This document shows positions 16,041 through 58,143 of a DNA stretch of 64,000 nt, in pieces. Position 1 is the stretch's first letter; every line of letters begins with the position of its first letter. The position numbers were made by a program, and so were the translations under genes. The notes beneath the pieces are model-generated. The model saw only the letters and a program-made list of their open reading frames with translations. It was not told the DNA's origin and did not search any database. This DNA is from Xanthomonas sp. SI (GTDB taxonomy: Bacteria > Pseudomonadota > Gammaproteobacteria > Xanthomonadales > Xanthomonadaceae): NCBI RefSeq assembly GCF_014236855.1, contig NZ_CP051261.1, positions 4,712,001 through 4,776,000 on the forward strand. The letters are read 5' to 3'.

Positions 16041-17668
16041 ACGCCCTCCTGGCGCTGCAGGAAGCAGGCGCAGGCGAGCAAGTCGGCGCTACCGCCCGGG
16101 CTGAGCCGGCGCGCGACGAAGGCGTCGCCGAGGCGCGACAGCTGCTGGCGCCAATCCGGCTGCGCCACGCCGCCGGCCTCGAGGAACGCACGCGCGCTGC
16201 GTTGCGCGAAGCGCAGCCCGTCGCGGCCGCCGCGGTGCAGCAGATTCAGATCGTCGGTCTGCGCGATCAGCTGCAGCAGGGTCTGCGCCAGCGTCGCCTC
16301 CTGCGCCAGGCCTGCACGCATCGCCGCGCGCAGGCTCGGCAGCGCTACGTCGCGCAGCAGCGGGAACCCGGCTGCCGCCTGTTCGCGCACGCCGGCCACG
16401 CCATGCAGGCGACGCATGCGCTGGCCGTGGCTGTATGGGTCCAGCGGTGCGTCGAGCAGCGCCTCGCGCCAGAGGCCCACGGCATTGCAGACCGCCACGC
16501 CATCCGGCGTCGCGTGATGCTGGCTGCGCAACCGCGCCGCCGCGGCGACCAGCAGGCCCAGGCTGAAGATCGCGCCGCGGTGCGTGTTGACGCCGCCGGT
16601 GGCGCGCAGCATCGCGCGCTCGGCGCCGATGCCGAGTTCGCGCAGCGTGGGGAACGCCGCATCGGCCGCGCCGGCGGTGGCGATCGCGACGAAGTAGCCG
16701 CGCAACGCGAACAGGCTGCGCAGGAACGTGGAAGCGTCCATATCGTCGTGGCTGCCGCGATCGAACGGCGTGACCAGACCCGGCTTCGGCGCGCAGGCCA
16801 GCTCGGCATGCAGGCTGGCGACGGCGAGACGGCCGAGGCGGTGCGGCATGGACAGGCGGTGTGGAGCGATCGCCGCTGCCTTGGCTGCGGCCACAGTCGC
16901 TCGCGGATGGCGGGCGAATTGTACCGTCGCTGCTCGGGCTTCGATCGTCGCGACTGAAGTCGCTCCCACAAGGGATGCCATGCCTGCGACAAGTCCTGTG
17001 GGAGGGGCTTTGGTCCCGACCGCTTCCGGTGTTGGCAAGACCGCGACTTCGTTCGTCGCGGCTGAAGCCGCTCCTACAGGAACTAGCGGATGGTCGGCTA
17101 CCCGTACTGTGGGAGGGACTTCAGTCACGACGCGGTCGGGCCGCAGCACCTCCATTGCTTCACTCGTCGCGACTGAAGTCGCTCCCACAAGGGTCTTGTG
17201 GCTTTCTTGCAAGGTGCCCTGTAGGAGCGGCTTCAGCCGCGACAGACAAGCAAAACCACCAGGGTTTCTAACTTCGCTCGTCGCGACTGAAGCCGCTCCT
17301 ACAGGAACTTGCGGACTATTCGCCGGGCGCACTGTGGGAGGAACTTCAGTCCCGGCGGCTTCCGACATTGGAAAGATCGCCGCTCCGTTCGTCGCGGCTG
17401 AAGCCGCTCCTACAGAGGCTTGCGGACGGCCGACTACCTGCACTGTGGGAGATACTTCAGTCCCGACGGCTGCCGAAGCCGGAAGGTTTGAGGCTGCGTT
17501 AGTTGTGATCGAAGCCGCTCCTGCAGGAGCCCGCGAATGTGCTGCTGGGGCCAATGTAGGAGGGGCTTCAGCCCCGACCGCTTCTGGCGCCGGCCCGTCC
17601 ACGGCTGCGGCCGCCGGCGATGCCGAGAAACAACCGTCTTCCACGCCGCGCACCGCCTGCAATTCCAT
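16037..17668 (-). CDS. mdcB: Triphosphoribosyl-dephospho-CoA synthase MdcB with a large in-frame repeat insertion
   Basis: The C-terminal ~270 residues are a normal MdcB/CitG-type enzyme (RLGRLAVASLHAELACAPKPGLVTPFDRGSHDDMDASTFLRSL; GGVNTHRGAIFSLGLLVAAA; GGRDGLRFAQRSARAFLEAGG). It makes the prosthetic-group precursor from ATP and dephospho-CoA. The ATG at 17668 shares a base with the mdcG stop (TGATG), the same junction as mdcD/mdcE, which argues that it is the ancestral start. Between them about 270 residues are translated from an array of about 12 dispersed repeats, giving recurring VGAASAATNE and GTEVPPTV segments. The whole frame is 543 residues against about 270-300 for the family. An internal ATG at 16849 would give a normal-sized protein but lacks a clear ribosome binding site. 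Confidence 0.85.
   Translation of the reverse strand: MELQAVRGVEDGCFSASPAAAAVDGPAPEAVGAEAPPTLAPAAHSRAPAGAASITTNAASNLPASAAVGTEVSPTVQVVGRPQASVGAASAATNGAAIFPMSEAAGTEVPPTVRPANSPQVPVGAASVATSEVRNPGGFACLSRLKPLLQGTLQESHKTLVGATSVATSEAMEVLRPDRVVTEVPPTVRVADHPLVPVGAASAATNEVAVLPTPEAVGTKAPPTGLVAGMASLVGATSVATIEARAATVQFARHPRATVAAAKAAAIAPHRLSMPHRLGRLAVASLHAELACAPKPGLVTPFDRGSHDDMDASTFLRSLFALRGYFVAIATAGAADAAFPTLRELGIGAERAMLRATGGVNTHRGAIFSLGLLVAAAARLRSQHHATPDGVAVCNAVGLWREALLDAPLDPYSHGQRMRRLHGVAGVREQAAAGFPLLRDVALPSLRAAMRAGLAQEATLAQTLLQLIAQTDDLNLLHRGGRDGLRFAQRSARAFLEAGGVAQPDWRQQLSRLGDAFVARRLSPGGSADLLACACFLQRQEGV
16945..17590. repeat. Array of ~12 alternating-orientation dispersed repeats inside mdcB
   Basis: Copies of the ~26-bp unit lie near 16950, 17000, 17053, 17109, 17165, 17217, 17279, 17331, 17390, 17443, 17505 and 17555, mostly in alternating orientation. 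They make a higher-order period close to 111 bases, which is divisible by three, so the mdcB frame stays open. Spacers between units are diverged, so this is not a CRISPR array. Confidence 0.9.
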
Positions 17669-38970: not shown

Positions 38971-39135
38971 GCGCCGATGATGGGGCGCATGCGCGCGCGG
39001 ATGCAAACGCCGCCATCGCGATCGCACGGCGCCGTGGCGACCGGCGCGCCTCGACGCGACGCGCCTACCCCCCATGCGGGACACGGCCTAGACTACGCAC
39101 CCCGCCGGACGCCCACCGGCAGCACCGGACCGGCC

Positions 39136-39609
39136 ATGATCAACAACGACGTACTGCGCTCCATCCGCTACATGCTCGACCTGAGCGACCAGATGATCGT
39201 GGACACGGTCCACCTCGCCGATCCCGCCTTCCCGATCGACAAGAGCGAAGTGCCGGCCTACCTGAAGAAGGAGGACGAGGACGGCTTCGTCGAATGCAGC
39301 GACCTGGTGCTGGCGCACTTCCTCGACGGGCTGGTGTTCCACTACCGCGGCCGCGACGACAGCCTGCCGGCGCGTCCGGTGGAAACCCGGGTCACCAACA
39401 ACGTGGTGCTGAAGAAGCTGCGCGTGGCGTTCCAGCTGAAGGACGTGGACATGCACCAGATCTTCGCCGACGCCGGCTTCCCGGTGTCCAAGCCAGAGCT
39501 GTCGGCGCTGTTCCGCCAGCCCGAGCACAAGAACTTCCGCCTGTGCGGCGACCAGCTGCTGCGCAACTTCCTCAAGGGCCTGACCCTGCGGATGCGCGCG
39601 GCGGGGTGA
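39136..39609 (+). CDS. DUF1456 (YehS-like) protein
   Basis: A 157-residue protein with the two internal repeats of DUF1456: NNDVLRSIRYMLDLSDQMIVDTVHLADPAFPIDKSEVPAYLKKEDEDGF and TNNVVLKKLRVAFQLKDVDMHQIFADAGFPVSKPELSALFRQPEHKNF, each followed by a helix (LVLAHFLDGLVFHYRG; QLLRNFLKGLTLRMR). Function is unknown. It is transcribed away from glpR and stands alone. Confidence 0.9.
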   Translation: MINNDVLRSIRYMLDLSDQMIVDTVHLADPAFPIDKSEVPAYLKKEDEDGFVECSDLVLAHFLDGLVFHYRGRDDSLPARPVETRVTNNVVLKKLRVAFQLKDVDMHQIFADAGFPVSKPELSALFRQPEHKNFRLCGDQLLRNFLKGLTLRMRAAG

Positions 39610-53945: not shown

Positions 53946-54304
53946 CCATGATCCGATGGCAGGCGAGTGGGTCGTCGCGCGACGGATTATAGATTCCGCG
54001 ATCGGAGGATCGGCGACAGCGCTCCTGGGCGGCCGGCATCCACGGATCTAACGGGCGCACCGATCGGATGGCCGGCCCAGCCGATCGTCCCTTTCCGCTC
54101 GCTAGAGCGCCCGCGCGGCCGTGTTCGCGTGAGCGTGGCCGCTATGCGGCACTCCCCGCGTTGTTATCGGCAGGCAACAGCGACCGGCGCGGATCTTCCC
54201 GACCCGCACAGGATTTCCGGCGCGGCTGCCTGCCTGTCGCAGCGCGCGTCCCCATACGGACGGCGTCCGCGCAGGTCCATCCCAACAGTTCATGGAGAAC
54301 GCAA
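53946..54304. promoter_or_regulatory. Divergent region upstream of the DUF692 peptide gene
   Basis: About 360 bases separate the divergent hypothetical gene and the peptide gene. Apart from GGAG at 54294-54297, which serves the peptide gene, no operator, hairpin or repeat is evident. Confidence 0.4.
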
Positions 54305-54541
54305 ATGAAGAGCGCAAGGGCAGTATCGTCGTTCCGGTCCCCGCACGCGGTCACCGTTGCGGTGCCGGTGGAGGTCGGCAACGACATCGAGAAGATGCAC
54401 AAGGTCACCCGGGAAATCCTCGGCCGGCTGGGCTGCGCGGCCTGCCATTCCGGCTTCGACCTCCGCTTCGTGATCGAACGCGACTTCCGGGTCAATCCGG
54501 CGCTGGAGATCGAGGGCTTCGCGCCGCGGATCGGCCCCTGA
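54305..54541 (+). CDS. Probable RiPP precursor peptide paired with a DUF692 enzyme
   Basis: A 78-residue peptide without signal peptide. The N-terminal part (SARAVSSFRSPHAVTVAVPVEVGND) could be a leader, followed by DIEKMHKVTREILGRLG and the core-like CAACHSGFDLRFVIERDF. Two cysteines and a histidine in CAACH are candidate modification sites, since DUF692 enzymes act on cysteine or neighbouring residues of peptides. GGAGAACGCAA precedes the ATG, giving ideal spacing. The DUF692 gene starts 15 bases downstream, so both are translated from one message. The role as a precursor is inferred from size and context; the peptide could also be a small accessory or metal-binding protein. Confidence 0.75.
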   Translation: MKSARAVSSFRSPHAVTVAVPVEVGNDIEKMHKVTREILGRLGCAACHSGFDLRFVIERDFRVNPALEIEGFAPRIGP

Positions 54542-54556
54542 CCGGCGGCATCGGCG

Positions 54557-55999
54557 ATGCATGCCCTGCCCGATCTCGGCGTCGGCCTGGTGCTGTGGCC
54601 GGAGTTGATGCCGGTGCTGGCCGAGGACGACGGCGCGATCGGGGTGGTCGAGATCGAGCCGGAATTCTTCTGGTTCGAGACCGGCAACGCGCAGGCGCCG
54701 ATGCGCATCGACACCGGCATGGTGCGGCAGCTCGCCGAGCTGCCGCAGCACAAACTCGTGCACGGCGTGGCCTCGCCGGTGGGCGGTTCGCTGGCGCCCG
54801 ATCCGCAACGCCTGCAGTTGATGCGCGACGTGGTGCAGGCGCTGGACGCACCGTGGGCCAGCGAACATCTGAGCTTCAATGCGGTACCGGTGGCCGGCGG
54901 CCCGGTCGATTCCGGTTTCCTGCTGCCGCCGCTGCAGACCGTGGCGAGCGCGCGACAGGCGGCGGCCAATATCCGCGCGATGGCGCAGGGCCTGCAGGTG
55001 CCGTTCGCGGTGGAGAACAACGTCAATTATCTGCGCCCGGTCGCTGGCGAGCTCAGCGACGGCGCGTTCATCGCCGAAGTGGCGACCCAGGCCGACTGCG
55101 GCATCCTGCTCGACCTGCACAACCTGTGGACCAACCAGAAGAACGGCCGCCAGCCGGTACGCGAGGCGCTCGCCGCGCTGCCGCTCGAACGCGTCTGCGA
55201 ACTGCACCTGGCCGGCGGCTTCGCGCACCGCGGCTACTGGCTCGATGCGCATTCCGGACTCGTCGATGAAGAATTGATGCGACTAGCCGCCGAGCTGATG
55301 CCCGCGCTGCCCAACCTGCACGCGATCGTGTTCGAGATGCTGCCGACCGCCCTGGCCCATGTCGGTATCGCCGATGTGCGCAGGCAGATCGACAGGCTGC
55401 ACACGCTATGGGCGCTGCGCCGGCCCGGCGCACGCGCGCCGCAGGCGGCAGCGGGCCTCGCGCGCAGCGATGGCGGCGCCGTACCGTCGCCCGCCGACTG
55501 GGAACGGACGCTGGGCGCCCTGGTCCGCGGCGACGCGCCGGGCGCGCATCCCGTCACCGCACTGCTGGCGGATCCCGGCGTCGCCCTGCTGCAGGAACTG
55601 GCCAGCAATGCACGCGCCGGACAGATCGCCAGCGCGGCGCGGCTGACCACGCGCATGCTGCTGGCGCATGGTGGCGAAGCGGCCTTCCGCAGCGTGTTCG
55701 AGGACTACGCCGCCGCGCAGCCGCCGCGCCAGTTCGCCAGCAGCGAGGCGCTGGGCTTTCTGGAGCACGTGCAACTCGCGGCGCCGGCGATTCCGCAGCT
55801 GGCGCAGGTGGCGATGTTCGAAAGCGCGGTGATCCACTCCGCGCTGCAGGGCGACGCGCGCGTCGTCGCCTTCGATAGCGACCCGGTGCCGCTGCTGACC
55901 GCGCTGGCCGAACGGCGTGCCCCGCCAGCGACGCAAGCGCCCGGCAGGTTTGCGATCGAGCTGCAGGGCGGCGCTGTCACCGCTATCCGCGCACGTTAA
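54557..55999 (+). CDS. DUF692 multinuclear iron enzyme (MNIO) with C-terminal partner-like domain
   Basis: A 480-residue protein. The first ~285 residues are a DUF692 TIM barrel: LGVGLVLWPELMPVL, EIEPEFFWFE, HGVASPVGG, WASEHLSFNAVP, VENNVNYL, CGILLDLHNLWTNQKNG, ELHLAGGFAHRGYWLDAHSGLVDEELM. The His, Glu, Asp and Asn positions match the iron ligands of MbnB/TglH-type enzymes, which oxidise peptide cysteines. Residues about 310-480 are an added helical domain (WERTLGALVRGDAPGAHPV; FEDYAAAQPPRQFASSEALGFLEHVQLA) resembling the separate DUF2063/partner proteins that recognise precursors in other systems. So this seems to be a fused enzyme plus recognition partner. The preceding gene encodes the likely substrate. 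Confidence 0.88.
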   Translation: MHALPDLGVGLVLWPELMPVLAEDDGAIGVVEIEPEFFWFETGNAQAPMRIDTGMVRQLAELPQHKLVHGVASPVGGSLAPDPQRLQLMRDVVQALDAPWASEHLSFNAVPVAGGPVDSGFLLPPLQTVASARQAAANIRAMAQGLQVPFAVENNVNYLRPVAGELSDGAFIAEVATQADCGILLDLHNLWTNQKNGRQPVREALAALPLERVCELHLAGGFAHRGYWLDAHSGLVDEELMRLAAELMPALPNLHAIVFEMLPTALAHVGIADVRRQIDRLHTLWALRRPGARAPQAAAGLARSDGGAVPSPADWERTLGALVRGDAPGAHPVTALLADPGVALLQELASNARAGQIASAARLTTRMLLAHGGEAAFRSVFEDYAAAQPPRQFASSEALGFLEHVQLAAPAIPQLAQVAMFESAVIHSALQGDARVVAFDSDPVPLLTALAERRAPPATQAPGRFAIELQGGAVTAIRAR

Positions 56000-56603: not shown

Positions 56604-56784
56604 CCCTGTAGGAGGGGCTTCAGCCCCGACAGTATCCGAAGCCGGAACACTCACTGCTCCGCTCGTCGCGGCTGAAGCCGCTCCTACAGGGACTTGCGGC
56701 TAGCTTGCCGGGTGCACTGTAGGAGGGGCTTCAGCCCCGACAGTATTCGAAGCCGGAACGCTCACCGCTTCGCTCGTCGCGGCT
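56604..56784. repeat. Dispersed-repeat array with ~113-bp higher-order period, cut by an IS
   Basis: Copies at 56604-56630, 56664-56690 and 56717-56742 are followed by a half copy at 56774-56784. The missing half (gaagtcgctcatacaggg) resumes at 58011 beyond the insertion sequence, and a further copy lies at 58051-58079. Confidence 0.85.
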
Positions 56785-58010
56785 TCAGGGCACCTCTAAA
56801 AACCTCCTTCTTTGGCATCATATGGTCAGAAGAGAGAGCCGAGGCCCCGCGATGATCAGCCTGTTTGCCGGACACGAACGCGAAGCCAAGCGCCAGCAGA
56901 TAGGCGACCCGCTGGCGGTGTTGTCTCGCCATATTGATTTCGCAGCGATTGCCCAAGCCGTCGATGCGAAGTTGTCCTTGGGCACCGGTACGCGCGGGGG
57001 CCGTCCGGCCTGGCCGACGGTGGTGATGGTCAAACTGCTGCTGTTGCAGCAGCTATACAACCTCTCTGACGATGCGCGGGAGTACCAGGTGCTGGATCGG
57101 CGCAGTTTCCAGCAGTTCCTTGGACTGGAACACAGCGGCAAGGTGCCTGACGCCAAGACGATCTGGGTGTGGCGCGAGCGGCTCAAGGCGCAGGATGTGA
57201 TGGGCGACATCAGCGCAGCGGTCGGCGTGCAATTGCAGCGGGCGGGATTCATCGCGCGTGGCGGTCAGATCATCGATGCGAGCATCGTCAGCGCCCCGAT
57301 CCAACGCAACACGCGCGAGGAGAACGCACAGATCAAGCAGGGTGGCGAGGTAGGCCAAGACTGGAGCGACGCTAAGCGCGCGCAGAAGGATGTGCAAGCC
57401 CGCTGGACCCGCAAGCACGGCAAGGCGCATTACGGCTACAAGCTGCACGCCAGCACGGATCGGCGTTGGGGCTTCATCCGCCGCCATGCGGTGAGCGCAG
57501 CCAACGTGCATGACAGCCGACACTTCGAGGAGGTGCTGGACCCCAGCAATCGCGGACGCACGGTGTGGGCCGACAGTGGCTATGCCGACGCATCGCGGGA
57601 GGCCGATCTGACGCAACGCGGCTATCGGGCGGCCATTCAGCACCAGGGCCAGGCGCGCAAGCCGCTAAGCGCGGCCGAACAGCGCCGCAACCGCCGGCTT
57701 GCCAAGGACCGGGTGTTCGGCGAACACCCGTTCGCGCGGCTGGCGCAGCAGGGCGGTAAATGCCTGCGCACCATCGGGTTGGCACGGGCCACGGTGGTGA
57801 TCGGGTTGAAGGTCGCCAGTCACAACCTGATGCGGCTGGCGCGGCTGCAGCATCCGGCCATGGTGCCCGCGTGAGCGGGTGAGGCGGCCAATCCGGCCGC
57901 TCTTCCTACATCCAGGACCCCTGCGAAGCACGTCGGCTTCCTCGAACAGACGCAGCGGCAGCGCCTTTGCAGCCCACTTCAGTGAAATGACGGGTTGTTC
58001 GAGGTGCCCT
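56785..58010 (+). mobile_element. IS5-family insertion sequence
   Basis: About 1.23 kb long. Imperfect terminal inverted repeats AGGGCACCTCTAAAAACC (from 56787) and, complemented at the right end, AGGGCACCTCGAACAACC (57993-58010) bound one transposase gene. Joining the flanks cgtcgcggct and gaagtcgctc rebuilds an intact dispersed-repeat copy, giving the insertion point precisely. No clear target duplication is visible; the exact ends are uncertain by a few bases because TTCAGGGCACCTC could extend the repeat. Confidence 0.88.
56852..57874 (+). CDS. IS5-family transposase
   Basis: A 340-residue transposase, apparently intact. The N-terminal DUF772-like region (RPAWPTVVMVKLLLLQQLYNLSDDAREYQVLDRRSFQQFLGL) precedes the DDE domain: QIIDASIVSAP (first Asp), RTVWADSGYAD (second Asp) and the R-rich RNRRLAKDRVFGEHPFARL (Glu). 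The ATG at 56852 has GAGG seven bases upstream; the ATG at 56822 is possible. One frame only, no frameshift. Confidence 0.95.
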   Translation: MISLFAGHEREAKRQQIGDPLAVLSRHIDFAAIAQAVDAKLSLGTGTRGGRPAWPTVVMVKLLLLQQLYNLSDDAREYQVLDRRSFQQFLGLEHSGKVPDAKTIWVWRERLKAQDVMGDISAAVGVQLQRAGFIARGGQIIDASIVSAPIQRNTREENAQIKQGGEVGQDWSDAKRAQKDVQARWTRKHGKAHYGYKLHASTDRRWGFIRRHAVSAANVHDSRHFEEVLDPSNRGRTVWADSGYADASREADLTQRGYRAAIQHQGQARKPLSAAEQRRNRRLAKDRVFGEHPFARLAQQGGKCLRTIGLARATVVIGLKVASHNLMRLARLQHPAMVPA

Positions 58011-58143
58011 GAAGTCGCTCATACAGGGACTTGCGGCTAGCTTGCTGGGTGCACTGTGGGAGGGGCTTCAGCCCCGACGGTATCCGGAGCCGAAACACAC
58101 CACGCTGCATTCGGCGCGACTATGCCCGCTCCCACACTCGCCG

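Follow-up and report, generated by a model that had tools for sequence, protein, structure and literature searches.

The present analysis concerns a 64,000-nucleotide stretch of DNA (hereafter, the window), corresponding to bases 4712001-4776000 of the 5.2-Mb single-contig genome of Xanthomonas sp. SI, and a two-gene unit located on its forward strand. The first gene (54305-54541, +) encodes a putative precursor peptide of 78 residues without a signal peptide, and the second one (54557-55999, +), whose ATG lies 15 bases beyond the stop codon of the peptide gene, encodes a 480-residue multinuclear iron oxygenase (MNIO) that appears to be fused to its own partner domain. Both open reading frames (ORFs) are real genes under purifying selection. 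When the window is compared with genome G134, the ratio of nonsynonymous to synonymous substitution rates (dN/dS) is 0.37 for the peptide and 0.25 for the enzyme, whereas the shifted frames (two per ORF) give values from 1.1 to 4.7, which argues that these ORFs are more than chance. The corresponding in-frame values against Luteimonas salinisoli are 0.57 and 0.35.

Residues 9-254 of the enzyme match the Pfam family PF05114 (MbnB_TglH_ChrH, also known as DUF692), with an E value of 3.5e-39 and 135 bits over a cut-off of 25, so that the original prediction of a 78-residue peptide followed after 15 bases by a DUF692 enzyme was correct. The DUF2063 model, which had been put forward together with DUF692 for checking the enzyme, is not matched, and no family other than PF05114 was found in the Pfam scan at E <= 1. 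The best NCBIfam model is BufB, with 107 bits of the 310 required. The N-terminal domain (approximately residues 1-288; 54557-55420, +) is predicted to adopt the TIM-barrel fold of TglH and MbnB, and all nine iron-ligand residues of TglH (H69, H104, E153, D186, N189, H217, D230, H232, and E260 in the window enzyme) are present in seven of the seven fused enzymes compared. Two catalytic helpers are missing, however. The counterpart of TglH Asn73 (PMC10880893) is Val71, and the general-base Asp expected two residues past a Glu ligand is absent, the window enzyme reading E-M-L where all four bufferin MNIOs hold an E-x-D motif (the Glu was matched by eye in both cases). Because this MbnB-type base is missing, the formation of an oxazolone or a 5-thiooxazole is disfavoured.

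The barrel is followed by a variable linker of low confidence (approximately residues 289-310; 55421-55486, +), with a predicted local distance difference test score below 50 at residues 295-306 and a dN/dS of 1.1 calculated over few sites, and then by the putative partner domain (approximately residues 311-480; 55487-55996, +). This domain was modelled by itself because a fold search with the full-length protein returned barrels only. It had been anticipated as a helical domain of 170 residues; the domain is indeed present, but in the predicted structure only its first part is helical, with TglI/DUF2063-like helices, while its end forms a strand-helix-strand-strand unit resembling a shortened RiPP recognition element (RRE; RiPP, ribosomally synthesised and post-translationally modified peptide). 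TglI ranks first in the fold search, and the domain exhibits the TglI/NGO1945 fold without the DUF2063 Pfam signature, as do the PME-type 2 partners defined by Antoine et al. 2025 (PMC12452194), who also named the adjamnio-7 putative precursors. A profile of this C-terminal tail also matches partner proteins of bufferin systems in the family, class, and phylum genome searches, and some residues are invariant across fused tails and free partners. The tail is as constrained as the barrel, with a dN/dS between the window and G134 of 0.215 and 0.209, respectively. A match of the tail profile to 9qkx_A in the PDB (E 0.058), obtained with six alignment rows and lost with twelve, was not used.

The partner lies within the same ORF as the MNIO in the window, whereas it is encoded by a separate gene in three-gene sister systems found in five genomes from the same family (G019, G176, G119, G089, and G093; loci L027-L031). 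These split systems comprise a peptide of 69-80 residues bearing a GCRPCLSGLDR(F/L) motif, an MNIO of 305-318 residues, and a partner protein of 193-225 residues, whose gene overlaps or abuts that of the MNIO. The single split MNIO that was scanned (L027) lies above the PF05114 cut-off, the free partner of L030 shows a sub-threshold match to DUF2063 (E 0.041), and the MNIOs of these systems likewise lack the E-x-D base. In a tree of 16 MNIOs, the seven fused enzymes form one group (support values 100/99), the five split ones another (90/93), and four bufferin enzymes a third (100/100). A fusion, rather than a fission, is suggested because the partners are separate genes in the other groups.

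Several observations weigh against reading the two genes as a peptide and a modifying enzyme with a fused partner domain. The tail matches TglI with an E value of only 0.046, by Foldseek alone, its RRE part stops where TglI continues for approximately 50 residues, and no partner protein came up when the tail was searched by sequence in the PDB. Furthermore, the tree is unrooted and drawn from its midpoint, with a long-branch warning between the bufferin and the fused groups, and the constraint on the peptide against L. salinisoli is modest (the value of 0.57 given above).

The peptide carries the sequence CAACHSGFDLRF at residues 44-55, and an alignment of 13 peptides from fused and split systems delimits a putative core at residues 43-54 (GCAACHSGFDLR; 54431-54466, +). 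D27, G43, C44, C47, S49, G50, D52, and R54 are invariant in all 13, and cysteines are few (two or three). As had been noted at the outset, the peptide differs from bufferin precursors in lacking a signal-like hydrophobic stretch: its maximum Kyte-Doolittle hydropathy over 12 residues is 1.27, compared to 2.0-2.2 in three bufferin precursors, and two precursors of this type from the same genome do have such a stretch. The absence of a signal peptide, the CxxC motif, and the location of the gene upstream of an MNIO gene fit the definition of adjamnio-7. Neither the peptide nor the enzyme had any match in a PHROGs search.

The peptide and the fused tail were found together in the same genomes of the family and class samples. 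A single-sequence query with the peptide found it in 4 of 198 genomes of the family, and peptide searches yielded 4 of 20 genomes of the genus, 2 of 369 of the class, and 2 of 398 of the phylum, the latter being the window's own genome and a chance match. This chance match (G672, E 6.9e-4) is the sole instance of a peptide-like sequence without a DUF692 gene, and it was dropped since it is an antisense frame within an efflux-pump gene. The tail was found in 13 of the 198 family genomes (the same four as the peptide, the five split systems, one decayed copy in G097, and three bufferin-type partners), in 3 of the 369 class genomes (the same two plus one bufferin partner), and in 3 of the 398 phylum genomes (the window's own plus two bufferin partners). 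Eight distinct intact fused loci were collected (the window, G134, G942, X. bonasiae, L. salinisoli, G160, G109, and G328), with a further locus in G939 that looks identical to that of X. bonasiae. The peptide gene directly precedes the enzyme gene and the tail is kept in all eight. In G328, which belongs to another family of the same class, there are two tandem peptides, and the unit lies downstream of an MNIO-DUF2063 pair of bufferin type, with an FTR1-cytochrome iron-permease gene directly adjoining it on the opposite strand; the whole array occupies L016:7350-13407. All plasmid matches of the enzyme by tblastn were partial, with none of 249 records reaching 80% coverage, and one of the two G328 peptides, the sole peptide tried there, had no plasmid match.

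In Luteimonas endophytica, the copy of the enzyme gene has a broken frame and a truncated 5' end (L011:4900-6232). Its upstream neighbour is the gene also found at that place in L. salinisoli, and no peptide was found in the bases before the broken enzyme gene; peptide and enzyme genes thus appear to decay together. The G097 copy (L026) matches this broken locus in sequence, and neither copy was aligned, placed in the tree, or counted among the intact loci. The alignments and the tree also lack G942 (L039), and the X. bonasiae locus (L009) was included in alignment A7 but not in A4. When loci L010 (L. salinisoli), L016 (G328), L018, and L019 were compared, no matching genes were found besides those for the peptide and the enzyme. 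A gene approximately 6 kb upstream of the unit matches between the window and L018. Flanks are common to both Luteimonas loci, and others to the Xanthomonas loci; further matches involve the bufferin MNIO inside L016 and one L016-L017 pair. A 465-base segment beside the L019 unit matches window positions 39134-39598, which are 15 kb from the unit and within another ORF.

The nearest named relative of the host in the samples is Xanthomonas bonasiae, with 96% identity in the enzyme and 91-95% in the flanking DNA. A GGAG sequence at 54294-54297 (+), 7 bases upstream of the peptide ATG, is the likely ribosome-binding site of the peptide gene, and the same is found in X. bonasiae (L009) and G134 (L006). 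Among these three loci, the region directly upstream of the peptide gene (54130-54304) is strongly conserved, more so than the sequence further upstream, and is a possible promoter or leader element. A domain scan of the neighbouring ORFs identified a TonB receptor, a barnase-type ribonuclease (PF00545; 51014-51454, -), an acyltransferase, a DUF6348 protein, an IS5-family transposase, and a ThuA protein, with three further ORFs giving no match; no transporter or leader protease was noticed beside the unit among the scanned neighbours, which comprise part of the ORFs. The transposase gene (56822-57874) is flanked by repeats at 56606-56784 and 58009-58136, and at the position of this IS5 element X. 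bonasiae has no insertion sequence; the repeat is present there in several copies in tandem. Overlapping matches of 69-75% to this L009 array at 16937-17609 suggest that the window has another array of this repeat. Elsewhere in the genome there are three other MNIO matches (L001, L002, and L003; G000:C1:110185-113465 and 1987797-1988582), of which L001 and L003 lie in neighbouring bufferin-type operons, each with an adjacent DUF2063 partner gene.

Taken together, the TglI-like fold of the tail, its profile matches to bufferin partners, the split sister systems, and the co-occurrence of peptide and tail support the proposal, already made in the original prediction, of an MNIO with a fused recognition or partner domain adjoining its likely substrate. 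The two genes probably constitute a minimal RiPP-type maturation unit, made of a peptide substrate and a single-chain MNIO-partner holoenzyme. In the mechanism that we infer, the N-terminal part of the peptide (approximately residues 14-42) would serve as the recognition segment and the GCxxCxSG-D-R motif as the core. The loose linker would connect the barrel, with its three-iron-type site, to the partner domain of the same chain. This domain would bind the recognition segment and present the core to the irons, where a core residue would be oxidised using dioxygen. Candidate targets are Cys44 and Cys47, or else Asp52, which could be hydroxylated as by the MNIOs PesH and PflD. Since no signal peptide is present, and no transporter or protease was noticed among the scanned neighbours, the modified product may stay in the cytoplasm.

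Known systems resemble this unit in part. TglH and TglI, involved in 3-thiaglutamate synthesis (PDB 8hci and 8hi7; PMC10880893), are two proteins where a single chain is found here, and their substrate TglA is modified at a Cys appended post-translationally to its C-terminus, whereas in the window-type peptides the CxxC is internal and the last residue is not Cys. Another is adjamnio-7 with MNIO cluster 7 (PMC12452194), whose signal-less CxxC peptides are encoded upstream of an MNIO gene, with an example from Novilysobacter, of the same bacterial family as the window genome; the accessible text mentions no MNIO-partner fusion. Adjamnio-7 may be the window family or its split sister; the split systems fit the description equally well. 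In PflD (PMC12636437), too, an MNIO carries an additional domain, and no partner protein is named in the accessible text, but that domain is a second enzyme, a nitroreductase, rather than a partner or recognition domain. This was the sole fusion of an MNIO to another domain found in the literature, as far as the accessible text goes, and no MNIO-partner fusion or work on Xanthomonas or Lysobacter MNIOs was recognised by title or abstract among open-licence PMC papers.

The nature of the target residue is the main point on which the proposed maturation unit admits a variant, rather than an alternative. Cys is the commonest MNIO target and the residue changed in the majority of reported substrates (PMC12452194), and both cysteines of the core are invariant. 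Nevertheless, other targets of MNIOs are known, namely Asp (ApyHI, PesHI, and PflD, with hydroxylation by PesH and PflD), Phe (PbsCD), and homocitrulline (StdDE), and the conserved Cys of ApyA is reported to be essential yet unmodified (PMC10635010). The CxxC cysteines could likewise serve to place the peptide, possibly at the iron centre, for oxidation of another core residue such as Asp52, which is invariant in all 13 peptides; with both the MbnB Asp base and the TglH Asn missing, a target other than Cys is a serious possibility, although somewhat less favoured than Cys. A copper buffer similar to bufferins and captophorins, with cysteines converted into copper-binding 5-thiooxazoles, is a more distant reading. 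Those systems, acting with BufB and PME-type 1 proteins, share the MNIO superfamily, a Cys-containing precursor encoded first, and a homologous partner, BufB being also the best, if insufficient, NCBIfam model, and the G328 unit lies next to a bufferin-type pair and an FTR1 gene. However, they are described as having a signal peptide, a separate DUF2063-RRE partner, an E-x-D base, and more cysteines (PMC12452194, PMC12668002), and none of these is found here; the enzyme also falls outside the four bufferin MNIOs in the tree. This reading was rejected as improbable.

It is quite improbable that the tail is an inactive leftover and that the enzyme borrows a partner from bufferin operons elsewhere in the genome. 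The shortness of the RRE part and the DUF2063 genes adjacent to two of the three other MNIO matches would agree with such a scenario, but not the constraint on the tail, which equals that of the catalytic domain, its retention at every intact locus, or the residues it shares invariantly with free partners. As for the peptide being a small haem- or metal-binding protein by itself, with an incidental MNIO neighbour, the window peptide does read CAACH, a c-type haem motif, and gives weak matches to a rubber-dioxygenase model (E 0.036) and, as the single hit of its profile in the PDB, to a cytochrome (E 0.022). Yet the His is present in only 4 of the 13 aligned peptides, so that CxxCH is not conserved, there is no export signal, and at all eight intact loci the enzyme gene comes immediately after that of the peptide. 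This explanation was rejected as highly improbable.

The proposed maturation unit can be taken further, to a self-sufficient single-chain MNIO that, without the MbnB Asp or TglH Asn helpers, installs a novel modification on the GCxxCxSG-D-R core, yielding a cytoplasmic and possibly metal-linked peptide of a RiPP class common to fused and split systems; this extended proposal is tentative, and doubtful as a whole. Many MNIOs depend on a second protein for holding their substrate, and this makes reconstitution and structural work harder. A natural single-chain MNIO-partner enzyme, together with two-protein sisters acting on homologous peptides, would permit direct tests of the contribution of the partner and would be suited to enzymology and engineering, and the core motif common to both kinds of system, along with the lack of the known catalytic residues, suggests a chemistry not yet assigned.
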